Source of the DNA: Nitrospirales bacterium
GTDB lineage: Bacteria > Nitrospirota > Nitrospiria > Nitrospirales > UBA8639
Direction: 5' to 3'
DNA: 53,106 nt
Assembly: GCA_021604005.1 (NCBI GenBank)
Contig: BQIV01000033.1
Location: forward strand, 1 to 53,106
Shown: piece by piece, positions 4,267-15,276 of the stretch
How the letters are laid out: the number at the start of each line of letters is the position of its first letter
Position numbering within the stretch: the first letter of the stretch is position 1
The notes under the pieces: generated by a model
Database searches by the model: none
The model's input: only the letters and a program-made list of their open reading frames with translations
Told to the model about the DNA's origin: nothing
Position numbers and translations under genes: made by a program

Positions 4267-4439
4267 AAATTAGGTTCCTCTCGCGGTGATTCGATGAATG
4301 GCGTACCTTACTCTGCGCTTTGAGGGGGCGTCAATTTGCCTTCCTACCCGTGATCATTGCTTTGTACTGGGAAAATAGTCGTGTAACAGAACTTACCTTT
4401 GCTCGCACGAGGATCCCGGGATGAGAAGAACATCGTTGG

Positions 4440-4525
4440 TTGACGGTTAGATTGAGGCAGGCAAAAAAGATGGGCGTCGTGCCCGTAGCTCAATGAATCT
4501 ATTGCTCATTGAGGGTGGGCAACTA
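4440..4525 (+). pseudogene. Decayed tRNA-Arg 5' copy with its promoter region
   Basis: TTGACG at 4440-4445, GATTGAGGCAGG and then GTGCCCGTAGCTCAATGAAT (4479-4498) align in order with the promoter and 5' half of the functional tRNA-Arg at 5721-5780. After that the copy has CTCATTGAGGGTGGG, matching the 3' side of the anticodon arm with the anticodon region deleted. The acceptor stem cannot form. It is a relic of a duplication or an earlier integration at this tRNA. The remainder of the 4267-4687 gap holds nothing else that I can identify. Confidence 0.6.
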
Positions 4526-4687: not shown

Positions 4688-4906
4688 TCAGCCAGCTCTC
4701 GATTCTCTGACGGCCCGCAGGATATCCTGAGTCGTGACTTTCGTTTTCACCCCGGGCACATCAAAAGGAGATGTGTCTTTTTCTCGTTTTGAAACAAGAG
4801 AAAAAACCGTGCCGTCTTTTCGACGAATTTCCACTTCTTCTTTCCTTGCTATATGTAATATTTTTGAAAAATTTTGCCGTGCTTCCGAATACGTAAATAC
4901 CTTCAT
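4688..4906 (-). CDS. Phd/YefM-type antitoxin
   Basis: A 72-residue antitoxin. The N-terminal pattern (TYSEARQNFSKILHIA, then an IRRKDGTVFSLVSK strand) is typical of the Phd/YefM fold, which dimerises and binds operator DNA. The C-terminal tail (VPGVKTKVTTQDILRAVRES) would wrap the toxin. It follows the PIN toxin gene by 6 bases on the same strand, so toxin precedes antitoxin, the reverse of the usual order. It probably neutralises and autoregulates that toxin. It has no promoter of its own in the 6-base gap, so it depends on the upstream promoter at 5310-5337. Confidence 0.85.
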   Translation of the reverse strand: MKVFTYSEARQNFSKILHIARKEEVEIRRKDGTVFSLVSKREKDTSPFDVPGVKTKVTTQDILRAVRESRAG

Positions 4907-4912
4907 GTTCTT

Positions 4913-5302
4913 TTACTCCAATACTTCGATCTTGAGATCGTTGGCAACTTGCTTCATACGTTTATCTAGTGTGAGGAGTGGACATGACAAGTACAACGCA
5001 CACTGTAAAAAGTACGCATCATAGGCATAAATATTATATTCGGCAGCTAATTTTACCGCATGCCGAATATCGGCAGATACCAACCGGACAGGAATCGCAC
5101 TGATAATCTCGAACGCCAACAATGCTTCTTTAAGAGTAAGCTGTTTTCGTTTCAGCATGGCTGTTAAGGCATTACCCACTTCATAGAGTAATATCTCCGG
5201 AGAGACAGCATTTGCTTCCGATGTCAGTTGGATAATGGCATCTTTCTCTGACTCGTCTAGAGCAACAGCTAGGAATATGTTTGTGTCTGCCACGACGTTC
5301 AT
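4913..5302 (-). CDS. PIN-domain ribonuclease toxin (VapC-like)
   Basis: A 129-residue PIN-domain endoribonuclease. All four acidic metal-ligand positions are present: Asp6 (VVADTN), Glu41 (LLYEVGNAL), Asp95 (YAYDAYFLQCA) and Asp113 (LLTLDKRM). An active Mg-dependent RNase is therefore expected. The downstream Phd-type gene is the antitoxin. A good promoter (TTGACA at 5332-5337, 16-base spacer, TACAAT at 5310-5315) would start transcription almost at the ATG (5302), so the mRNA should be leaderless or nearly so, and no Shine-Dalgarno is seen. A 12-bp palindrome overlaps the -10 box. Confidence 0.88.
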   Translation of the reverse strand: MNVVADTNIFLAVALDESEKDAIIQLTSEANAVSPEILLYEVGNALTAMLKRKQLTLKEALLAFEIISAIPVRLVSADIRHAVKLAAEYNIYAYDAYFLQCALYLSCPLLTLDKRMKQVANDLKIEVLE

Positions 5303-5337: not shown

Positions 5338-5720
5338 GTCCTTCTACGTAACTTCACCATGTTAAGTATATAATCCTAAGCCATCTCTCAATCTTCCCAT
5401 GAAAACCAGTTGGAGACGGACACATGTCCAACAAGGAACAACATCGGTCACCGCTTCGAGAAAACCCAAATGCTCATAGAATAAAGTCTAATTTTATATC
5501 AAGGGGGCAAGTCGAATGCTTCATAAGGTGCCTTCTAAAAACTAGGATTTTTTAGTGAGGAAAAGAGATCAAGATGCTTGTTTTATCATCCAAAGATGAC
5601 GCACCTTATTCTGTCTACTGGTGGTGGGGAAATAGGAGATCGACGGATCTCGCCGCTTTCGAAGGCGGGTTAACTCTTTATCAGGCATCAACCACTGGTG
5701 AGTACAGTAGAAAGTCTCGG

Positions 5721-5749
5721 TTGACGGGTTGAGTTGAGGAATGTATAAA
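5721..5749 (+). promoter_or_regulatory. tRNA-Arg promoter
   Basis: TTGACG (5721-5726), a 17-base spacer and TATAAA (5744-5749) lie 10 bases before the tRNA. This is close to the sigma-70 consensus and strongly placed. Confidence 0.75.
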
Positions 5750-5759
5750 GGATGGCCAC

Positions 5760-5835
5760 GCGCCCGTAGCTCAATGGATAGAGCATCGGTCTTCGGAACC
5801 GAGGGTTGGGAGTTCGAGTCTCTCCGGGCGCGCCA
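5760..5835 (+). tRNA. tRNA-Arg (anticodon UCG)
   Basis: A 76-nt tRNA with encoded CCA. The acceptor stem is GCGCCCG/CGGGCGC with G as discriminator. The D arm is GCTC...GAGC. The anticodon stem TCGGT/ACCGA closes the loop CTTCGGA, giving anticodon TCG, which reads CGA and probably other CGN codons. The T arm GGGAG/CTCTC has one G-U pair around TTCGAGT. The 46 bases from 5790 to the CCA are repeated exactly at 11998-12043, so this gene is the left boundary and attachment site of the island that follows. Confidence 0.95.
5790..5835. repeat. attL: 3' part of tRNA-Arg, 46-bp direct repeat
   Basis: From the base before the anticodon loop through CCA this stretch is identical to 11998-12043. Sequence diverges immediately on both sides, as expected for the core of a tRNA attachment site used by a site-specific integrase. 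The tRNA stays intact on this side of the island. Confidence 0.8.
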
Positions 5836-6027
5836 GCATTTCTAACCGTTTGAAATTAAAAGAGTAACTTGTTATTTACCGGTTCGGTGCCAAAATATAC
5901 TTGTCTTCGACGAAATCCTGTAAAAGTATTATGAGCAAAGGCGAAGGAGGAGTTCGAAAAAATCTCAAAAAATGATAAATCGACGGTAATCATTTCTGTT
6001 GAACCTATTCCTCGTAAACCCCCCTTA

Positions 6028-7266
6028 CTATGCTGACCACAAACCTGGCAGCGGCACAGCATACAAATCTTTACCAAACCCTCCCAAACAGTTTTCTCCT
6101 GTATAAAGGATAATACCTTTCTTAAATTTATTTCCGGCAAGATCGGCTAATCGTTTGAGCCCTTTGAAATCAGCAGCGTGCAAACTAGCAGATGATTTGA
6201 TTTCAATCCCATACAAATGCCCTTTTCCATCCTTGAGGACCAGATCAACTTCAGCCCCTTTATGAATGCTAAAATGGTAAGGCTTAAGTACAAGATCAGA
6301 CCAACTCAGTTGTTTCAATATTTCCATGACCACAAAGTTTTCCAAAAACGGCCCTGCTTGACTTCGTTCATTCAAAAAGCTCTCATCCCTCTGTTCAATA
6401 AAATGTGTGAGCAGCCCAGTGTCATTGAAGTACACTTTCGGAGATTTCACAAACTGGCCTTCCGTATTAGGCGTCCATGCTGGAATTTTGACGAGCAAGA
6501 AAATATGTTCCAGCAGTGCCAGATAACGCTGAAGAGTGGTATTTTTTGTCCCTGATAATCTAGCGATGTCTGACATATTCATCGTGCTGCCAATTCTTGT
6601 CGCAATCAGCTGAAGAATAGTCGGCAGAGCTGTCAGCCCTTCTATATTGGATAGCTCACGAACATCTTTTTGCAAAAGGCTCGTCATATAGGATTGAAAC
6701 CATTTGTTTTTTCGCGCAAAAGCCCGGCGCGCCAAAGGCTCTGGATAACCCCCGGCTCTTATCATCTGCGCAATATCTTTCCAGGCAACCTTCTTCCCCA
6801 TAAACCCATTCTCGCGGGCGACGAGTTTTTCAAGGAAACCGGAGTGCTTCCCCTTCATTTCATCCTGGGACAACGGCCAGAGGTTGTGAATTTCCAGGCG
6901 ACCGGCTAAAGAATCCCCCACCTTGGGTAACATCAGAACATCTGCAGAGCCCGTTAAGATCATACGCCGTCCTTTTCTGTCTTCATCCACCAGCTTTTTC
7001 ATGCTTAAGAACAAATCAGGTGCTCTTTGTACCTCGTCGATGATCGCATGTTTGTGTAAATCTTGAAGAAATCCGAGCGGATCTTTTTGGGCCGCACTTA
7101 AAGTCGCGGGATCATCCATCGTCACAAACTGACCTTCAAATGCTCCTGATTCAAGAAGCCCTTTGCAAAGCGTACTCTTCCCCACCTGCCGCGCCCCATT
7201 CACGAGGACCACTGGCGTATCATCTAAAGCTTCTATGATCGCATCCATTATGAATCTCTTATACAT
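6028..7266 (-). CDS. AAA-type ATPase with DUF4143 C-terminal domain
   Basis: A 412-residue member of the ATP-binding/DUF4143 family. Walker A is GARQVGKST (about residues 24-32). Walker B with HAIIDEVQR is near 93-101 and is followed by ILTGSADVL. A winged-helix-like middle part contains MNMSDIARLSGTKNTTLQRYL. The C-terminal DUF4143 part contains GAEVDLVLKDG and GIEIKSS, a PD-(D/E)xK-like arrangement. The family is widespread on mobile and accessory DNA; its biochemical role is not settled. The start may be the ATG at 7266 or the one at 7248, which has AAGAGA eight bases upstream. It lies just inside the island next to the tRNA and reads toward it. Confidence 0.88.
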   Translation of the reverse strand: MYKRFIMDAIIEALDDTPVVLVNGARQVGKSTLCKGLLESGAFEGQFVTMDDPATLSAAQKDPLGFLQDLHKHAIIDEVQRAPDLFLSMKKLVDEDRKGRRMILTGSADVLMLPKVGDSLAGRLEIHNLWPLSQDEMKGKHSGFLEKLVARENGFMGKKVAWKDIAQMIRAGGYPEPLARRAFARKNKWFQSYMTSLLQKDVRELSNIEGLTALPTILQLIATRIGSTMNMSDIARLSGTKNTTLQRYLALLEHIFLLVKIPAWTPNTEGQFVKSPKVYFNDTGLLTHFIEQRDESFLNERSQAGPFLENFVVMEILKQLSWSDLVLKPYHFSIHKGAEVDLVLKDGKGHLYGIEIKSSASLHAADFKGLKRLADLAGNKFKKGIILYTGENCLGGFGKDLYAVPLPGLWSA

Positions 7267-7796
7267 GCCATCATCTTAGAGGATTTTTGCTATCTTATCA
7301 ACAAAATTATGGGTAATTTTGTATTTAAGTATGGGTAAATATGTATTTTTATATGGTTAATATTGTGTAATTTTCTCGGCAGATATTCAAACGTCACCGT
7401 GCGCCACAGCCGTTTCATAAACTATGGTTTTGAGGGGCAAGCATATCTTGGGCTTTTCGTAAAGGAGGCAATCCTACGACCAGCCCCATCTTTCCTGGGA
7501 AACAGGGGTAGGTTAAGACTGTGAGTTGTCTGGGATGCGGTGGAGTTCGAGGACGATAAAGAAGCAGGCTAGACCAGCTCAACACGCGACTTAAGGGATT
7601 GTTTTCTAACGTTTATAGATATTTATAGAGATAGGCTAGGCTGCAAAGACGTGCCCTGAAGAATCCGATTCCATTTTCAAGAATTTCGAACAATAGAGCG
7701 AATCCCATTGAGTGCCGGTTGAGGCATACGGACTTTCTTCGCGGTATCAAGATCCCAAGTGTACGAAAGTTCATAGAATCGGCTATAAGTCCGAAC

Positions 7797-7990
7797 TTAC
7801 TCCTCCGGGGGCGCCAAGTCCTCTAACCGTTTGAAAATACAGAAAGAAACTCTCTTTTCTCTATAAAGGCCATTTCATACTCACTACTCTCCATATTTAT
7901 CGAAAAGGTTGTCTGGGAGCGGTGTTTGCGGGGTTCGAAAATATCGTCAAAACTTTTAGGAAGAAGGTAGTTATTTCTGTTGAGCAAATG
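7797..7990. repeat. Decayed second copy of the tRNA 3' flank
   Basis: CTCCGGGGGCGCCAAGTCCT, then CTCTAACCGTTTGAAAATAC, aligns with the end of the tRNA and its downstream flank at 5821-5860. Further on, GGGGTTCGAAAATATCGTC and GTAGTTATTTCTGTTGAGC align with 5950-6003 in the same order and spacing. It is a diverged duplicate of the tRNA 3' end plus about 150 bases, likely an older attachment-site scar. The rest of the gap 7267-8002 is A+T-rich near 7300-7380 (probably promoter DNA for the ATPase gene) and otherwise shows nothing. Confidence 0.6.
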
Positions 7991-8002
7991 TGCAACAGGA
8001 AG

Positions 8003-8419
8003 TTATTCCCAGGGATTGATTAGCAAGGCTCCTGTCCCTTCAAAATCAGAAACATTTCTGGTCATAATATGAAGGCCATGGCGCGTGGCTGTTGCAGCGA
8101 TGAAGCCGTCACTAACAGGAGTCGGCTTTCCTTTCTTCTGGGTAACGGCAAGGAGTTCTCCCCATAGTTTTATTATTTCAAGATCTATATTCAAGATATT
8201 TTGCTGATATTCGGTTTCCAGTAAAGCGAGTTTGTGTTGTAGGTCACGCTTCCTTTTACTTTCCTTAAGCAGATGAATCCCTTTGGTGATTTCGCCAACA
8301 GTCAAAACGGATAGAAAGCTATCCTCAGCTTTCAACACTGAAACACGCTTGCGAACCTTTTCAGACCCACCCTTGCGCCATAATTCAGAGACGACACACG
8401 TATCAAGTAAGACTCTCAT
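8003..8419 (-). CDS. PIN-domain toxin, FitB/VapC-like
   Basis: A 138-residue PIN-domain RNase. Acidic residues are Asp6 (LLDTCVVSEL), Glu43 (TVGEITKGI), Asp104 (PVSDGFIAATA) and Asp125 (TRNVSDFEG). The DTCVVSEL start and the TRNVSDF end are typical of the FitB subgroup. The start overlaps the antitoxin stop by four bases (ATGA), which implies translational coupling in the order antitoxin, then toxin. It probably cleaves RNA when the partner is degraded and stabilises the island in the host. Confidence 0.88.
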   Translation of the reverse strand: MRVLLDTCVVSELWRKGGSEKVRKRVSVLKAEDSFLSVLTVGEITKGIHLLKESKRKRDLQHKLALLETEYQQNILNIDLEIIKLWGELLAVTQKKGKPTPVSDGFIAATATRHGLHIMTRNVSDFEGTGALLINPWE

Positions 8420-8658
8420 AGTTCAGTCTTCCGAGATAAGGATCGGTCCCGTTTGAAGTCTACCCCTTCTAAGTCCATGTTTCCTCTCAGCAAGAATTCA
8501 ATAAAGTTAGGTTTTTCCCCTGTCAGATGCTGATAGTCGTGTTCCGAGATCACGACCACTCTCTCATCACGGCGAGATACCAATTGAGGGCCTTCTAACA
8601 GAGCTTTATTCACAAGCTCGCTAAATCGGTTCTTGGCTTCAGCAAGTTTCCATTTCAT
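8416..8658 (-). CDS. Phd/YefM-type antitoxin
   Basis: An 80-residue antitoxin with the pattern WKLAEAKNRFSELVNKAL, then PQLVSRRDERVVVISEHDYQHL, characteristic of Phd/YefM proteins. I start it at the ATG at 8658 because GGAGG at 8664-8668 lies five bases upstream. The ATG at 8670 would put that sequence inside the gene. It overlaps the toxin start by four bases. The C-terminus (MDLEGVDFKRDRSLSRKTEL) resembles the toxin-binding tails of FitA-like and Phd-like partners. It should repress the promoter at 8693-8721. Confidence 0.87.
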   Translation of the reverse strand: MKWKLAEAKNRFSELVNKALLEGPQLVSRRDERVVVISEHDYQHLTGEKPNFIEFLLRGNMDLEGVDFKRDRSLSRKTEL

Positions 8659-8676
8659 ATCTGCCTCCATATAGAG

Positions 8677-8721
8677 CTAGATTGTCTAGATTATTATAGT
8701 ACGGCCAGGAACGTTCGACAA
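8677..8721 (-). promoter_or_regulatory. Promoter and operator of the island Phd/PIN pair
   Basis: On the minus strand, TTGTCG (8716-8721), a 17-base spacer and TATAAT (8693-8698) form a good promoter. The direct repeat CTAGATT-GT-CTAGATT with an internal TCTAGA palindrome (8677-8692) lies just downstream and suits an antitoxin operator. The promoter occupies what was once the coding 5' region of the truncated recombinase on the other strand. Confidence 0.65.
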
Positions 8722-9178
8722 GTTTTCTTTTTGTTTGGGAAGTTTGTTTGAGGTGTCTATGGAGAATGCCGTTCTGTGTTGGCGCTTTGATCGGTTTGCT
8801 CGGTCAACCAAACATCTCATCACGGCCTTAGAAGAATTTCGCCACCTTGGTATTGATTTCATCTCGTACCAAGAAAATATTGATACAAGCTCTCCGCTGG
8901 GAAAAGCTGTCTTTACCATTGTTGGCGCGATCGCAGAGTCAGAGCGAAATATTATTGTGGAACGAATTAAAGGAGGCTTACGGAAAGCCAAAGATCAAGG
9001 AAAGAAATTAGGAAGGCGTCCTATAATTGATAAGAGGCTCATAGAGACAATTCACAGCATGAGAAATCAAGGTGTATCGCTTAGAGATATTGGGAAGACT
9101 TTGAATGTTTCTAAATCCCTTGTCCATAAATCCTGTCAAAAATTGAATCCTCCATCCTCCAAAATTTCAACGACTTAG
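8699..9178 (+). pseudogene. Serine recombinase (resolvase/invertase), N-terminus lost
   Basis: From 8699 the frame reads VRPGTFDKF and then VLCWRFDRFARSTKHLI, NIDTSSPLGKAVFTIVGAIAE and ERIKGGLRKAKDQGKKLGRR, which is the second half of a small serine recombinase catalytic domain and its E-helix. A C-terminal helix-turn-helix (VSLRDIGKTLNVSKSLVHK) follows. The first roughly 45-60 residues, which carry the catalytic serine, are missing; a stop codon lies at 8687. A product of about 140 residues could start at ATG 8759 (GAGG upstream) and bind DNA, but it cannot catalyse strand exchange. It is probably a relic of the recombinase that moved this DNA. Confidence 0.8.
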
Positions 9179-9262
9179 CAGGATGATTCAACCTGTCCGT
9201 AAATCAAATGATTTGAGGACAACGTTATGCGGAATGTCTTGTATTTAAATTATATTAGCAAA

Positions 9263-11716
9263 TCAATGTCGGAAGTTTCTTTTTTTGCGAAGCCAAGTAT
9301 AATAGTTGGGCATTTTCAAATAAATTGCTTGGGTGGAGTTAGAAAGATCCCTAAGTGTCCTGGTGCCATTGTAATGAGAAAATTTACTAAAAGGCCCACC
9401 CTTATTCTTCCAAGTATTACTGATGCCATTTTCTGCAAATAGCTCCGTCCCAGTTAATAAAATTACCCAATGCCTAGGCTCATGGTTAACGGGCCTTCTT
9501 GCCCAATCAATAAACTTTCTTAGAAGAGCTTTTTCATTACTTGAGAAATTTTCCTTCAGTACAGAAATGGTAATTACTGAATCGGGCAGCATTTCTGCTG
9601 CTATTTTTAGCTGAGAAATGTCCTTTTCCTTGATAATATTTTCGCCAAAAGACTTCGCTTCGCCTATAACCAACTTAGGGTTACTACAATAGTCATGACT
9701 ACTTACTTCTGAGGACCAAAGCGCGAAATCAATCTCACATTTCTTATCACTAGAAATGAGATCTAATGCCGTTGAGTAGTTGGTTGAACTAATCAACCCC
9801 GGCGAGCTTAATTTACTCAGTGCATTTATCGTTAATAGGGAGCAATAAGCACCCTGGGCGTAGTCCGGGACGGCAAATGGACCAACCACTCTATACATCC
9901 AATTACCATTTTGCTTTTTTAGATCAGCTTGTGGGAAATCATAGTATTTTAAACAGCGTTCACACCTCACTTCATAAGCTACTTCATTTAAGTCGTGCCA
10001 GTTTTTAGCGCCGCAATGACTACAATCAGTCTGAAGCCCAAGTCTTATCGCGTTGCATTTTGTATAGTCTGAAATATTGAATTTTGAAACATGGTTTGAA
10101 TTGTGCTTTCTTATTTGATTTTGCCATTCCTGTATAGAAGCTGTTCTTCCAGTAAAGTTTTCCTCGTGAATGAGCGAGTCGTCTACACCACCGTGGCGTC
10201 TAGTTCTCATGGCGAGTTTGTTAATAAACTTAACTATCTGAGGATCATTTACCAAATGTAATCTCCAAAAACCATCTAGGCTGTGAAGTATTTGTTTGGC
10301 AATACGTCCTGGTTCTGACAAAGTAGCACTAATGCCAAGCTTCTTAAACCATTGGGTGAAAGCTTGATCATTCTTTAAAAAGTATAATGGTTGGTGCCAA
10401 TCTTTGTAATCCTGCGTAAAAACCCAACCCTCTTGAGTTATGCAGACATTCTCGCCACCCAGACCAAGGGAAGGCCAACTTCGATCAAAAGTATTGTAAG
10501 GCAATACCGTGACTATTTCAGAATCGCTGTATGACTTCGGCACAATTACGTTTGCCCAACGAAAACTTGAACCACTGTATCTTTGTGCAAAAAAGGGAGA
10601 AAGTGTTTCAAATTGCGAATGCATTTGGCCATTATTTTTCAATGTGAGATGAACTTGCCTTTCGGATACCGATACCTTCATCCTTTCATATTGAGGTTTA
10701 TGTAAAACGTCAACTGGGGGGTGCCAGATTGAATTTCGCCACGGTTTGAATCGCCATGATCCTTGAGGTAGTTCATCAAACGCAGGCAAGATCACTTCTC
10801 TTGCCCTTTTCTCAGTAACCGACCTTGCTATTTCTACTGTCAGAGAATGCATGATTCCATGGGGATTATCTTTAAGAGGGCGATAATTTTGACTGATTAG
10901 GTTTTTTAAAAAATCAGATAAATCATCAAACCATTTTATGGGGACTGGGAATACAGGGGAAGGTTCAATTCTTATGTTCCATAGGTCTATAAGATCTAAT
11001 GAACTGTTTGGGTCAAATAAATAAATAATTGGTTCATGATGTGAGTACCTCACTCTCTCAATATGATTGAAAGTAATACCTAAAGGAAAAATAGGACTCT
11101 TACTATGCAGTTTCAACCATGTTTCAGGGCAAGAATCAACTTCTTCGGGACTAAACACATTACGAAACGCATCTGATAGATATTTTGTTCCATTGCCTTC
11201 TGGATATACACCTATACACGCGTGCGCAAAAAAATCATTCTTGCTGGAAGCTATGATAGCCGGACGTTCGTTCTTGAGAGTAAAACGCCGTTCACTTTCA
11301 TATGTGTGTTTCAGAACGTCATAAATACTTTGTCCAAAATATGGGTAATTGAATCCTTGATATTCTTTTGCCATAAATTCGTTCAAGCCAACCACTGCAC
11401 TATTTAACGAAGTTTCTGATCGCAAGGCGGCTAATCCAGCTTTCTCTAGGAGTCCTTCTTCGGCTTCTACATAGACATCTGGTTCAAAGAAACGAACATA
11501 TCCCTTTGCTATTTCATAACCTTTTAAATATTCAAGTCTATCAGATTGCCATTCTTTGGGAGTGACCTTGAAAATGGGGATTATCGGGTTATACTTACCA
11601 CCCCAAAGACAGGTGTTTATCTGCATTATTTTTCGTATAGACGCCTTATCGGATGGCCTGACAAGGAAACCGATTCGTGTCGGTCTTAGACGTAAATTTA
11701 AGGACAACTCTTTCAT
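9263..11716 (-). CDS. Large protein with zinc ribbon and PD-(D/E)xK-like domain
   Basis: An 817-residue cytosolic protein that I do not recognise. The N-terminus (RPTRIGFLVRPSDKASI, then CLWGGKYNPIIPIF at about residues 36-49) looks like a conserved alpha/beta start. The middle (200-550) shows no motif that I can name. A zinc ribbon is made by Cys565/Cys568 and Cys585/Cys588 (CSHC...CERC). The C-terminal part has EIDFALW (Glu661, Asp663), KLVIGEAKSFG (Glu686, Lys688) and a following Gln702, the order of ligands expected for a PD-(D/E)xK nuclease. It has no signal peptide. No clear Shine-Dalgarno precedes ATG 11716; TTGACA at 11784-11789 may be a -35 box. It is the main cargo of the island. 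A nuclease-type defence role is my inference. Confidence 0.8.
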   Translation of the reverse strand: MKELSLNLRLRPTRIGFLVRPSDKASIRKIMQINTCLWGGKYNPIIPIFKVTPKEWQSDRLEYLKGYEIAKGYVRFFEPDVYVEAEEGLLEKAGLAALRSETSLNSAVVGLNEFMAKEYQGFNYPYFGQSIYDVLKHTYESERRFTLKNERPAIIASSKNDFFAHACIGVYPEGNGTKYLSDAFRNVFSPEEVDSCPETWLKLHSKSPIFPLGITFNHIERVRYSHHEPIIYLFDPNSSLDLIDLWNIRIEPSPVFPVPIKWFDDLSDFLKNLISQNYRPLKDNPHGIMHSLTVEIARSVTEKRAREVILPAFDELPQGSWRFKPWRNSIWHPPVDVLHKPQYERMKVSVSERQVHLTLKNNGQMHSQFETLSPFFAQRYSGSSFRWANVIVPKSYSDSEIVTVLPYNTFDRSWPSLGLGGENVCITQEGWVFTQDYKDWHQPLYFLKNDQAFTQWFKKLGISATLSEPGRIAKQILHSLDGFWRLHLVNDPQIVKFINKLAMRTRRHGGVDDSLIHEENFTGRTASIQEWQNQIRKHNSNHVSKFNISDYTKCNAIRLGLQTDCSHCGAKNWHDLNEVAYEVRCERCLKYYDFPQADLKKQNGNWMYRVVGPFAVPDYAQGAYCSLLTINALSKLSSPGLISSTNYSTALDLISSDKKCEIDFALWSSEVSSHDYCSNPKLVIGEAKSFGENIIKEKDISQLKIAAEMLPDSVITISVLKENFSSNEKALLRKFIDWARRPVNHEPRHWVILLTGTELFAENGISNTWKNKGGPFSKFSHYNGTRTLRDLSNSTQAIYLKMPNYYTWLRKKRNFRH

Positions 11717-11836
11717 TAAATCATAAATAGAGAATATCGGTTTTTAAATTATGTGGAGATTGTTAAATAGGGTAGTAGGCTAATGTCAAGGTGCATGTTA
11801 ATCTACAATTATGAAGAAACCAAGTAGTTACCCTGA

Positions 11837-11876
11837 TCCCGGTTTTACTCCCGGTTCGGTCCCGGTTTTGGTCCCG
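11837..11876. repeat. Short direct repeats, TCCCGGTT units
   Basis: TCCCGGTTTT, TCCCGGTT, TCCCGGTTTT and TCCCG follow each other with a period of about 11-12 bases, 120 bases inside the right end of the island. Such iterated sites near an attachment core can be arm-type binding sites for an integrase or excisionase, but that is only a suggestion. The surrounding 11717-11997 gap has no gene. Confidence 0.4.
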
Positions 11877-11997
11877 ATTCTGAATCTACCTCAATCATCA
11901 ATCATAGCACTTCAAATTATAAAATCTAATGTTTTTACGAAGGCTTAGGAGCCTTAATCACACTTCATCATCATTAGTCGTATTGCCTTCAGATGCT

Positions 11998-12043
11998 TCT
12001 TCGGAACCGAGGGTTGGGAGTTCGAGTCTCTCCGGGCGCGCCA
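11998..12043. repeat. attR: exact 46-bp copy of tRNA-Arg 3' part
   Basis: Identical to 5790-5835, from the base before the anticodon loop to CCA. There is no 5' tRNA half here, so it is not a tRNA gene. It marks the right end of the integrated element, and what follows should be the original downstream flank of the tRNA. From 12044 to 12211 I see no other feature. Confidence 0.82.
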
Positions 12044-12211
12044 CTACTGCTTTACTCTCCTTGACTCTTTCCAAAAACATAAAGAGAGCAGTTTGAATGT
12101 CTTCGATTTGCTGTCAGGGTAATTCCTGGCGAACGCACTAATCTGACGACTGCTCTACACGGAAGTGAGAACGCATGTACGTTTCCTGGATGAGAAGTCC
12201 AGTGTGACGTT

Positions 12212-12400
12212 TTATAAATGGCTGGGAAAGTTCATGCGTTGGTGCAGTATTCGCAGCACATCGATATGGGAATTTTTAATCTGATGGACCAGGGCATGTT
12301 TTCTGATGTTAAAGCAGCGATGGTCTTCAGGTAGCAAGGTATGCCGATACCCAAGAAAGGGATTGTCTTTTACGATATCCAGAGCATGGGAGAGGGTGCA
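12212..12400 (-). pseudogene. ParE-family toxin remnant
   Basis: The minus-strand frame from 12400 to the TAA at 12212 reads LSHALDIVKDNPFLGYRH, then RCFNIRKHALVHQIK and DVLRILHQRMNFPSHL. This is the C-terminal two-thirds of a ParE/RelE toxin, with the diagnostic ending VLRILHQRM. The N-terminal roughly 35-40 residues are absent: the frame begins abruptly two bases after the antitoxin stop. The deletion joined the antitoxin end to the middle of the toxin. No functional toxin can be made. Confidence 0.75.
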
Positions 12401-12401
12401 T

Positions 12402-12701
12402 CTATTCAGAGAGGACAGCAGACTTAGGCTTGTGTCCTTCCTGAATTTTCCGTGTGGCAGTTTGTCGTAGCTCGTTCAGCACGTCTGGTGAGAGTTCCTG
12501 GTACTGTCCATTGGTGACTTGATCCTGCCCGACCTTGATTGCCGAAAGAAACTGGTTTTTGCGTTCATCTTCCTCGCGCATATGGCGAACGGCATCGCGA
12601 ACCAGCTCGGTTTCGTTCATGTAGAATCCGGCTTCGACTTTGACTTTGATGTAGTGTTCATTCGCATCGGGAAATCTGATATTCACAGCAATACCCTCCA
12701 A
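12402..12701 (-). CDS. ParD-like ribbon-helix-helix antitoxin, orphaned
   Basis: A 99-residue protein with the ribbon-helix-helix pattern VNIRFPDANEHYIKVKVEAG, NETELVRDAVRHMREEDERK, as in ParD/CopG antitoxins. A charged C-terminal tail ends in KPKSAVLSE. Its natural partner directly downstream is reduced to a fragment (12212-12400), so it can no longer be needed to neutralise that toxin. The reading frame is nevertheless intact, which suggests either recent toxin loss or retention as a repressor. It may start at ATG 12701, though no strong ribosome-binding site is seen. Confidence 0.8.
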   Translation of the reverse strand: MEGIAVNIRFPDANEHYIKVKVEAGFYMNETELVRDAVRHMREEDERKNQFLSAIKVGQDQVTNGQYQELSPDVLNELRQTATRKIQEGHKPKSAVLSE

Positions 12702-12948: not shown

Positions 12949-13098
12949 TATGTCATTAAAGCACAAAGTGTCTTTCGCTTGCTGACGCATTTTCCACATC
13001 TCGAACTCATCGAAGTGAACGCTCGGATTGCCTATGACGCGTCACGGCTTCGGGCCGAATCGTCACTTCAAATCTCTGATGTCTTGAATGACGTCTAG
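12949..13098 (+). pseudogene. PIN-domain toxin fragment
   Basis: A 49-codon stretch reads YVIKAQSVFRLLTHFP, LELIEVNARIAYDASRLRAE, SLQISDVLNDV and then stops. LIEVNARIAYDASRLRAE followed by an ISD step is typical of the C-terminal half of VapC-type PIN domains, just before the third acidic residue. Both ends are missing, so it is a relic. The nearby DNA up to 13144 has no other gene. Confidence 0.5.
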
Positions 13099-13144
13099 AA
13101 TCTAACGTATTTCAACCGTTAGGAGGTCTATAAAACTTCGACGA

Positions 13145-13405
13145 TTATTGAGGTGGTCCAAATGGTTCGATTGGTGGGTTGGAAAACGGGCCCTTGATGC
13201 CTGTATCGTCTTGAGTGAACTGTGGGTTGATTCTCTGAGCGGCTTCATGATCCACGAGAATGCTGTAAAGATTGTCTTGTGGGTCAATCTCGATGATTCC
13301 ATATTCCTGGTCAATTTCTTCCAGCTTCAATCCGTATTTTTTACACACATCCTTGAGAGTGGGAACACCTTTTTCCCAACTAATAGTCACGAGTACCTTC
13401 GGCAT
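13145..13405 (-). CDS. Propeptide-like partner of the adjacent S8 protease
   Basis: An 86-residue cytosolic protein (MPKVLVTISWEKGVPTLKDV, then KYGLKLEEIDQEYGIIEIDP and YSILVDHEAAQRI). The alternation of strands and helices, and the ending GPFSNPPIEPFGPP, resemble the inhibitor_I9/propeptide fold whose tail lies in a subtilisin active site. The protease upstream carries a similar segment (KIYADRELQPM) in its own N-terminal region. I infer a trans-acting chaperone or inhibitor. ATG 13405 has GAGAGGTC six bases upstream. It lies 152 bases after the protease, with a strong hairpin between them that may set the expression ratio. Confidence 0.75.
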   Translation of the reverse strand: MPKVLVTISWEKGVPTLKDVCKKYGLKLEEIDQEYGIIEIDPQDNLYSILVDHEAAQRINPQFTQDDTGIKGPFSNPPIEPFGPPQ

Positions 13406-13492
13406 GCTGACCTCTCAAAACTGGTTCATGTCTACGGTTCAACATACCATTGTAGCATTTCTACTGTACCGTTCGCTGGTACTGAGAAAGCA

Positions 13493-13521
13493 GGCCTGTT
13501 TGGCAAGTTGCCAAACAGGCC
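13493..13521. terminator. Perfect 14-bp inverted repeat between protease and partner
   Basis: Arms 13493-13506 and 13508-13521 are exact reverse complements around a single base, starting GGCCTGTTTGG. There is no U-tract on either strand, so it may be an attenuator, an RNA-processing or stability element, or a DNA-binding site rather than a full terminator. Confidence 0.5.
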
Positions 13522-13557
13522 CAATACGAGAAGATATGTTTGTAAACGTGTCTAGGG

Positions 13558-15276
13558 TTATGTCCCCGTACACTTGCAAGGATGTGTTTGAGTTTGCTCC
13601 TCAGTCCTTGTGTTTTCTTTACCCGCAAGATAGCCCTTTAAAAAAGCCAGCTGATCTAAGGTTAAATCTTGTTCTAAGGATTCTGGCATAACACGACTGA
13701 GCAGTTCTCGAACGTCTGGTCGTTGTTGGATTTCCTGTCCCCAGACGGCAATATCACTCTCCAGTGTTGAACTGCTTGGGTTCGAAGATGTCCCAAGTGG
13801 TGAGCCTAGATCTCTTATCAAGTCCCAGCGACAGAGCCAGGGATATCGCCGACATAGCTCGAGATGGCTGCAGATCCAGGGATAGCGTTCACAAATGTCG
13901 ATTACAGGAGGAACGATCTTATCAACGATCTTGCACCCGTTCACCACTCCATGACCATGTTGGAAGTCGTATCCGGTGGGTCCGAGATCTTCGGCGGTTT
14001 GCGTCAGTAAATTCCGAAGAGCTGCTGGACTGGTCTGAGAGTCGCTCGCGTTATAGGGGCGACGAGTGCGTATGGCTGCCACGACTCCTGAAACAACAGG
14101 ACAGGCGGCTGAGGTTCCACCATCGGCAGTATAAACGCCCGAGCCGGCAAAGTGCGTGTAACCGGAAATGTCAGGTTTGCGTTGCTCCAGCCGTCCCGGC
14201 CCGATCGCGGAATAGCCCACGCGAGCCTTGGTTGTATCGACGCCAGCCACGCAGGTGACTGCTGGGTGGGAGTTGGCGCCCCAAATGGTCTTTGTGGTGA
14301 CACCTTGACAGCGTCCGTCTGGACAATCTGCTCCGCAATTACCGGCAGCAAACAAAATGTCTGCTCCCGCACGTTCGAGCGTAGCGACGATGCGACTGAA
14401 TGGGTGGTTGAGATTATCGCTGTAATTCCCTGGATGTCCTACAGGGAAATCCCAGCTTGAATGGAACATTCCCCAACTGTTGTTTACCACGAGAGAACGA
14501 TGTTCTCCGGGACGTCGAGGAGCATTCATCACGGACAAAAGGTGTCGGTAGGCGCGAATGGCATCAGAGAGAAATGCACCAAATCCTGTGGGTGTGGGGA
14601 CAAATGGGTGCAATAAAGCGATATCAAGAATCGTACAGTCTGGTGCTGAAATACAGACGTCAAAGGCCACCATGGTCCCATGGCCCACTGGTGCACTTCC
14701 GGGAGTCACACTTGCCGGGTCCCATGCCCAGCTTCGACTTGCATCAAAGGTTGGAGTTTTCCCCTGGCTATTGAGATAGGCCATATTGACTCCCGTATCC
14801 ACAATAGCCACTAAGACCCCGCTTCCGTTCATGCGATTGCGGTGCATTTTTTTCACACAAAGCAGGTTTTCGACGTCTGTATCTGTCCCTACCGCAGGTG
14901 ATCCGGGGCAGACAATCATTGGCTGAAGCTCACGATCAGCGTATATTTTAACGGGAGACTTACTTTTTTGCGCTGCTGCCTCTACCTGCGAGATGGTGTT
15001 TTCCTCGACTGTCCCACGAACTAAAAACGTCGAAGTTTCCAGGTTATCATCAAAATCCAAGTTAGCCGTAGAGTCGTAAAGTTCGCTTTCAGGGTATTCA
15101 TGTTCTATCAGCTTCGGCATTGCAACGACAGGAAAGTTTTCATCATATTCTAACCCCTCTATTCTCGGAACCGCGGCTGACGCTAGACTTGTCTTGTTAG
15201 TGGTCATCGCGTTTAGGGCTTCGCTTTCAAGTTGTTTTGTCCGGCTTAGTTCTATAATGACAGGTCGTTTTGCCAT
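13558..15276 (-). CDS. Subtilisin-like serine protease (S8), cytosolic
   Basis: A 572-residue peptidase. The triad is Asp160 (VAIVDTGVNMAY), His199 (VGHGTMVA) and Ser389 (GGTSAACPVVSG), with the oxyanion Asn near 313 (AAGNCG), so it should be active. The N-terminal 120 residues hold a propeptide-like strand-helix unit (STFLVRGTVEENTISQVEAA, then KIYADRELQP). There is no signal peptide, which points to an intracellular role. After the catalytic domain, residues 462-483 repeat C-RYPW-C twice, followed by a Ser/Thr-rich linker and a helical tail with Cys-Lys-Cys near the end. AAAGGAGT lies just before ATG 15276. It is followed by the propeptide-like gene, its probable regulator. Confidence 0.9.
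   Translation of the reverse strand: MAKRPVIIELSRTKQLESEALNAMTTNKTSLASAAVPRIEGLEYDENFPVVAMPKLIEHEYPESELYDSTANLDFDDNLETSTFLVRGTVEENTISQVEAAAQKSKSPVKIYADRELQPMIVCPGSPAVGTDTDVENLLCVKKMHRNRMNGSGVLVAIVDTGVNMAYLNSQGKTPTFDASRSWAWDPASVTPGSAPVGHGTMVAFDVCISAPDCTILDIALLHPFVPTPTGFGAFLSDAIRAYRHLLSVMNAPRRPGEHRSLVVNNSWGMFHSSWDFPVGHPGNYSDNLNHPFSRIVATLERAGADILFAAGNCGADCPDGRCQGVTTKTIWGANSHPAVTCVAGVDTTKARVGYSAIGPGRLEQRKPDISGYTHFAGSGVYTADGGTSAACPVVSGVVAAIRTRRPYNASDSQTSPAALRNLLTQTAEDLGPTGYDFQHGHGVVNGCKIVDKIVPPVIDICERYPWICSHLELCRRYPWLCRWDLIRDLGSPLGTSSNPSSSTLESDIAVWGQEIQQRPDVRELLSRVMPESLEQDLTLDQLAFLKGYLAGKENTRTEEQTQTHPCKCTGT

Follow-up and report, generated by a model that had tools for sequence, protein, structure and literature searches.

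An exact 46-bp copy of the 3' part of a tRNA-Arg(TCG) gene, found again 6.2 kb downstream in a 53,106-nucleotide stretch of DNA from a Nitrospirales bacterium (here called the window), raises the question of what the two copies enclose: a single integrated element, perhaps still mobile, or the residue of several. The window is contig C33 of a 4.7-Mb, 92-contig Nitrospirota assembly (G000). A first-pass annotation had described the interval as one genomic island flanked by attL and attR of an element that integrates at tRNA genes. A repeat search combined with ARAGORN confirmed the coordinates of both copies (46 nt, 100% identical, spacing 6208) as well as the divergence of the flanks immediately outside of the repeat; by simple counting, the chance expectation of an exact 46-bp repeat in 53 kb is ~1e-19. 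The search also revealed a third, degenerate copy of the tRNA 3' end (repeat D2) at 7787-7816, which had gone unnoticed. Named records with an exact match to the 46-bp repeat all belong to 'Nitrospirales bacterium NPIRA01/03/04'.

On the 5' side of the tRNA gene, positions 4438-4498 represent a 79% copy of 5719-5779, that is, of the tRNA promoter region and the first ~19 nt of the tRNA. This partial copy is located 1.3 kb upstream, and the two copies are separated by a Phd/PIN toxin-antitoxin pair (4688-5302); in relatives, unlike in the window, the same upstream gene is found close to tRNA-Arg(TCG). Taken together, these features suggest that another, separate insertion took place 5' of tRNA-Arg(TCG).

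Table 1. Features of the interval and its right neighbour, in window coordinates (LSR, large serine recombinase; z-scores from mononucleotide shuffles)
Feature	Position	Strand	Basis or remark
tRNA-Arg(TCG), integration target	5760..5835	+	ARAGORN
46-bp repeat, left copy (tRNA position 31 to CCA)	5790..5835	+	repeat search
Left end 1, decayed LSR-gene 3' end	5836..6030		DNA alignment
412-aa AAA_14-DUF4143 protein, PADLOC candidate defence family PDC-S01	6028..7266	-	Pfam; PADLOC E 7e-145
Right-end B, degenerate LSR-type, interrupted by ~94 bp	7648..7816	+	ends in tRNA-3'-end-like core 7787-7816
Left end 2, decayed LSR-gene 3' end	7817..8003		z 8.2, 7.2, 5.3 vs three intact LSR 3' ends
PIN-domain (VapC-like) toxin	8003..8419	-	Pfam PF01850
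Phd/YefM antitoxin	8416..8670	-	Pfam PF02604
Truncated serine recombinase, without first ~64 positions of resolvase domain	8735..9178	+	Pfam; unnoticed in first-pass annotation
817-aa cargo protein of no described family	9263..11716	-	sequence searches
Right arm, four direct repeats (TCCCGGTT x3, TCCCGATT)	11837..11879	+	repeat-array match to tyrosine-integrase element family
attR core, right 46-bp copy (tRNA position 31 to CCA)	11998..12043	+	repeat search, spacing to right arm
Left end 3, decayed 3' end of older LSR gene, pre-insertion neighbour	12044..12210		z 5-9 vs intact LSR 3' ends
ParE-type toxin gene fragment	12207..12407	-	intact on contig C32 of the same genome, behind LSR
Ribbon-helix-helix (ParD-like) antitoxin gene	12402..12701	-	Pfam + comparison with relatives

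The interval contains accessory genes only, as initially proposed: AAA_14/DUF4143, PIN, Phd, a partial resolvase and an 817-aa protein without family (Table 1). It also lacks a tyrosine integrase, in line with the first reading; the PF00589 matches of the genome are all on contigs other than that of the window. The truncated serine recombinase shows 92.5% nucleotide identity to a likewise truncated copy in NPIRA01. The 817-aa protein gave no match in Pfam, PADLOC or NCBIfam. Its C-terminus carries E-x-D...GEAK, PD-(D/E)XK-like by motif only, plus two CxxC pairs, and structure prediction from the single sequence was unusable (mean pLDDT 35). Homologues are rare, with one among 344 other Nitrospirota genomes (44% identical) and one on a Photobacterium plasmid (33%); viral contigs contained no close relatives. 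At the Nitrospirota homologue (L172, G286:C117, 6509-9916) the gene is followed by genes for 284-aa and 301-aa proteins, with an AbrB-like/PIN pair nearby, an arrangement that possibly represents a multi-gene system without counterpart at the window copy.

What kind of element produced the right copy can be read from the DNA in front of it. The ~220 bp to the left of 12043 resemble DNA from several genera, where it abuts the 3' ends of different tRNAs, and the conserved part consists of four TCCCGGTT-like direct repeats, 11-12 bp apart. A sequence-only model of this right end, comprising 86 positions (R1), matched in 51 of 345 Nitrospirota genomes. We were able to delimit 21 elements in other Nitrospirota, mostly in metagenome assemblies; these elements are related and share loci, and their counts do not represent independent events. 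All follow the same order, with the tRNA, a two-repeat left arm, the cargo, a four-repeat array and the tRNA-copy core. In each of the 21, the left arm is 49-51 or 74-75 bp away from CCA, near or inside the end of a tyrosine-integrase gene whose antisense reading frame reaches the tRNA or overlaps it; the right arm starts ~150-175 bp (mostly 160-163) before the core, and the core repeats the tRNA exactly or almost exactly from position 28-33 to CCA. Of the 21 elements, 20 encode a full-length integrase of the same family, in antisense orientation across the tRNA or next to it, and the remaining one (L092) carries a C-terminal remnant. Eight tRNA isoacceptors serve as targets (Cys-GCA, Arg-TCG, Arg-TCT, Arg-ACG, Gln-TTG, Gln-CTG, Lys-TTT and Gly-GCC). 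Elements that share a tRNA mostly cluster in the integrase tree, with the targets varying among groups.

The TCMCRGTT repeats are best read as putative arm-binding sites of the integrase. Repeat variants (TCA vs TCC) agree between the left and right arm of an element with r = 0.90 (21 elements), a value not reached in any of 5000 permutations, albeit for elements that are related to each other. In 1.69 Mb of strand the arm-pair motif was counted 113 times, against a single occurrence in shuffled sequence; as the loci were chosen for containing the motif, these counts indicate only a pattern not due to chance. Exact matches to the arm pattern were absent from viral contigs. Tyrosine integrases with arm-binding domains use such sites to steer integration and excision. 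In the complete elements, the integrase most likely joins the core of the circular element to the 3' part of the tRNA, which is thereby restored with element-borne sequence, and the two-repeat and four-repeat arms would direct integration and excision.

Defence-type genes in complete elements of the family include an AAA_15/OLD-like ATPase, PDC-S06, an AbiLi-like ATPase and Abi_alpha/PDC-S47; one of the complete elements (L096) also has a Toprim/DnaB-type protein. Several genomes have tandem right arms 0.3-4 kb apart, suggesting an integron-like cassette array. Second right ends occur at 13347-14696 in L152, where the unit is a single Abi_alpha gene, and at 13090-13620 (- strand) in L150. The cassette reading was rejected, as the inner ends in these two have non-cognate tRNA cores (an Arg-TCG-type core inside an Arg-TCT element in L152, a Lys-type core inside a Cys element in L150) and the remaining inner ends are coreless; they look like captured ends rather than cassettes. 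At another locus (L079 in G015; 7918-7993 and 11135-11338) a tRNA-Arg(TCG)-type core and right arm are inverted 3.2 kb from the tRNA, which suggests an inversion or integration elsewhere.

In the window, the four-repeat array begins 161 bp before a core that spans tRNA positions 31-76. Given this array at the spacing of the family, the right copy is, as judged by its sequence context, the true attR of a definable family of tyrosine-integrase elements. The other half of such an element is missing. No two-repeat left arm at 49-51 or 74-75 bp from CCA was found on either strand of 5700-8000, gene and Pfam annotation of the interval revealed no tyrosine integrase in antisense orientation next to the tRNA or across it, and tblastn detected no homologues of the family's integrases in 7817-11830. 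With both the integrase and the left repeats missing, the tyrosine-type half of the window is an end without a partner. Thus, the idea of an attL/attR pair holds in that the repeats derive from att sites at an integration hotspot and the right copy is an attR, and fails in that the two copies are not a matched pair.

R1 has no second match in the window's own genome. The nearest relative of the integrase in that genome was rejected as a helper, as it belongs to a complete element with different arm repeats. This 9.1-kb element (L173, G000:C58, 1219-10373) at tRNA-Leu(CAG) encodes a tyrosine integrase and has att repeats that are identical over 65 bp; close to each of its ends are arm repeats around ATTGTCAAGT, with a sequence unlike TCMCRGTT.

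The remaining ends in the window are of a different type. Three LSR-type left ends are arranged in tandem, each behind a copy of the tRNA 3' end (5835, 7816, 12043). No LSR gene runs into tRNA-Arg(TCG) in the window; decayed 3' ends of such genes start at 7817, 12044 and, with weaker similarity, at 5836. Left end 1 aligns with left end 2 (z 10) and with the left end in a relative, G001 (z 12), and weakly with one intact LSR 3' end (z 3). Intact genes of this kind overlap tRNAs in several genomes. In NPIRA01 the same locus holds a 37-kb interval between the same cores, opening with a 533-aa LSR antisense into tRNA-Arg(TCG); at tRNA-Arg(ACG) in the window's own genome (C32) a 523-aa LSR, 75% identical to that of NPIRA01, is followed by a ParE/ParD pair. 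Other LSR homologues overlap tRNA-Ala(CGC) in G022 and tRNA-Arg(TCT) in G046, and G004 has an LSR homologue that is 91% identical. The matching right end, right-end B, has the signature GRTTCCATTCTTCAAG...GTTCGAACTTACTCC...GGCGCGCCA and precedes the tRNA-3'-end-like core of the window in a degenerate, interrupted form. Further copies are found in G001 and G003, at two places in NPIRA01, behind the LSR element on C32, and in G022 with a tRNA-Ala-like core; the recurrence at the C32 element and relatives assigns right-end B to the LSR family. The C32 element itself (L088, 6360 to ~11536), with ParE/ParD, a 702-aa protein and right-end B, appears intact and is a candidate for present activity.

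Comparison with other genomes shows what the site looks like with different content. Both the upstream genes (from an rluD-like gene through the one that ends near 4340) and the downstream genes are syntenic with NPIRA01, implying the same locus with different content: 6.2 kb in the window, 37 kb in NPIRA01 and, in G001, a 1-kb HigBA-like unit. Two loci provide the junction expected of a site without the island, in which the LSR 3' end that directly follows CCA shows homology to 12044-12210 (z 6-9), namely tRNA-Arg(ACG) of the same genome and the orthologous tRNA of NPIRA01. The predicted empty site, with 5835 joined to 12044, is therefore represented by homologous loci, and a same-species case is not among them. 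Three further candidates were set aside: in G002 and G032 the DNA after the tRNA is dissimilar to 12044-12210, and G004 is suggestive by protein comparison and not by DNA alignment (z 2.3).

The NPIRA01 locus also indicates how cargo may have been exchanged. The block at 11800-12300 is 96% identical to NPIRA01, compared to 74-82% for neighbouring core genes, while between the recombinase fragment and the right end NPIRA01 has a PIN_12 and a pentapeptide-repeat protein rather than the window cargo. The 96% block continues ~250 bp past attR into the remnant of the old LSR gene, which makes homologous recombination a better explanation for the swap than excision followed by reintegration. Most simply, the cargo reaching from the recombinase fragment (8794-9220) to attR would have been swapped among related strains by homologous recombination at shared ends.

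These observations converge on a reading to which we assign a probability of roughly 0.8: rather than one element, the 6.2 kb contain at least two integrative units, decayed and stacked at tRNA-Arg(TCG), that together form an immobile composite. The single island of the first-pass annotation is split by right-end B into at least two units that both start with LSR-type left ends, and the layers are unit 1 (5836-7816), unit 2 (7817-12043) and, from 12044 onward, the margin of an older element. The LSR-type left ends, right-end B, the tyrosine-type arm with attR, the missing integrase and left arm, and the junction at homologous loci are seen in the sequence; from them we infer the order of events, the deletion and the immobility. 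An LSR element with ParDE would have occupied the site first, leaving the remnant 12044-12701. A tyrosine-integrase element with TCCCGGTT arms would then have inserted between the tRNA and this remnant, its right arm and attR being what is left at 11837-12043, and units of LSR type, with left ends at 7817 and 5836 and right-end B at 7648-7816, would have inserted beside the tRNA. The LSR genes, like the tyrosine integrase and its left arm, were presumably lost by deletion or recombination. With one arm and the core kept and the other arm and the enzyme gone, we judge the interval to be fixed, and the composite is probably unable to move by itself; of the two options offered initially, fixed or mobilised in trans, the former is thus better supported. 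Excision would require a helper plus tolerance of the missing arm. Three points weigh against the composite reading: the outer core is perfect (46/46) and the inner one decayed, which could mean that the whole composite moved recently as a unit whose functional ends were the outer repeats; left end 1 is tied to LSR genes mainly via left end 2 and G001; and the empty-site comparison rests on homologous loci rather than a same-species genome.

An alternative that we consider unlikely is that the units are LSR-driven satellites, non-autonomous carriers of defence or toxin-antitoxin cargo moved in trans by an LSR such as that on C32, with the tyrosine-type attR being incidental. In unit 1, LSR-type ends on the left and right enclose a single gene and no LSR, the HigBA-like unit in G001 has the same two ends with no LSR between them, and an intact LSR exists in the same genome. 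However, unit 1 is degenerate at either end, the last segment terminates in a tyrosine-type attR, and deletion derivatives of full LSR elements would look identical.

It is more doubtful that the 46-bp copies are a working attL/attR pair of a non-autonomous, CIME-like element excised by a helper with TCCCGGTT-arm specificity. The perfect identity of the copies beside a heavily decayed right neighbour, the intact right arm at standard spacing, and the 500-bp block around attR, which points to recent movement of something, would fit such a history. Yet attL lacks the left arm that all delimited elements have, the genome contains neither a cognate integrase nor a second R1 site, and the block crosses attR by 250 bp, as better explained by homologous recombination. 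Slimmer still is the chance that serine and tyrosine systems share one tRNA target and recombine their ends, such that the stripped composite could still be moved in trans by either helper; if true, a defence/toxin-antitoxin composite would stay mobilisable by two unrelated recombinase types. A partial tRNA duplication without any link to integration can practically be dismissed, since, although partial tRNA copies do occur, as upstream at 4438-4498 (promoter and tRNA 5' end), the boundaries of this copy are those of the cores in the 21 delimited elements, behind a conserved arm at the same spacing.

Through the study of this fossil locus, a phylum-wide family was uncovered in nitrite-oxidising bacteria and their relatives. 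Its attachment-site anatomy is unusually readable, with two repeats where the integrase gene ends, four at the opposite side of the element, fixed spacing and eight isoacceptors, and the ends of complete and broken members are detectable from sequence alone, offering a direct route to delimiting defence cargo in Nitrospirota. The family also allows a test of how arm specificity is kept while the tRNA target changes within one integrase family. We found no description of such elements in a Nitrospirales comparative-genomics paper (PMC12342949).

The general class of locus, composite tRNA islands built by accretion, is already known. Cis-mobilisable elements (CIMEs) are att-flanked, retain functional attL and attR and lack integrase and transfer genes, and integrative elements can accrete in tandem. 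The window shares the att flanks, the lack of integrase and transfer genes and the tandem accretion, but its inner site is degenerate and its left arm is missing, the latter arguing against a functional attL/attR. P4-like elements, PICI and PICMI are tRNA-targeting satellites that carry defence genes. The complete relatives of the window element resemble them, as read from genes alone, in the integrase beside the tRNA and the variable defence cargo, whereas the window has remnants only. Tycheposons, in the second-hand description of PMC10872708, are tRNA-linked cargo elements with a tyrosine recombinase; as far as that description goes, the tRNA target, the recombinase beside the tRNA and the variable cargo are alike, and the window lacks the recombinase. 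By analogy, the nearest described parallel to the LSR layers is provided by the ssrA genomic islands of Dehalococcoides with the serine integrase DsiB, which form tandem islands behind one RNA gene, split by copies of its 3' end; the LSR gene carries the att repeat at its end, and many islands without an integration module are possible cis-mobilisable elements (PMC3146451). The window has the same tandem units after tRNA-3'-end copies, ends of the same recombinase type and units without an integration module. In Dehalococcoides, however, one LSR system acts at ssrA with a 20-bp repeat, whereas the window mixes LSR- and tyrosine-type ends at one tRNA and has an outer repeat of 46 bp with tyrosine-type arms. 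The locus is best read as a broken stack, the fossil of two element families sharing one tRNA.
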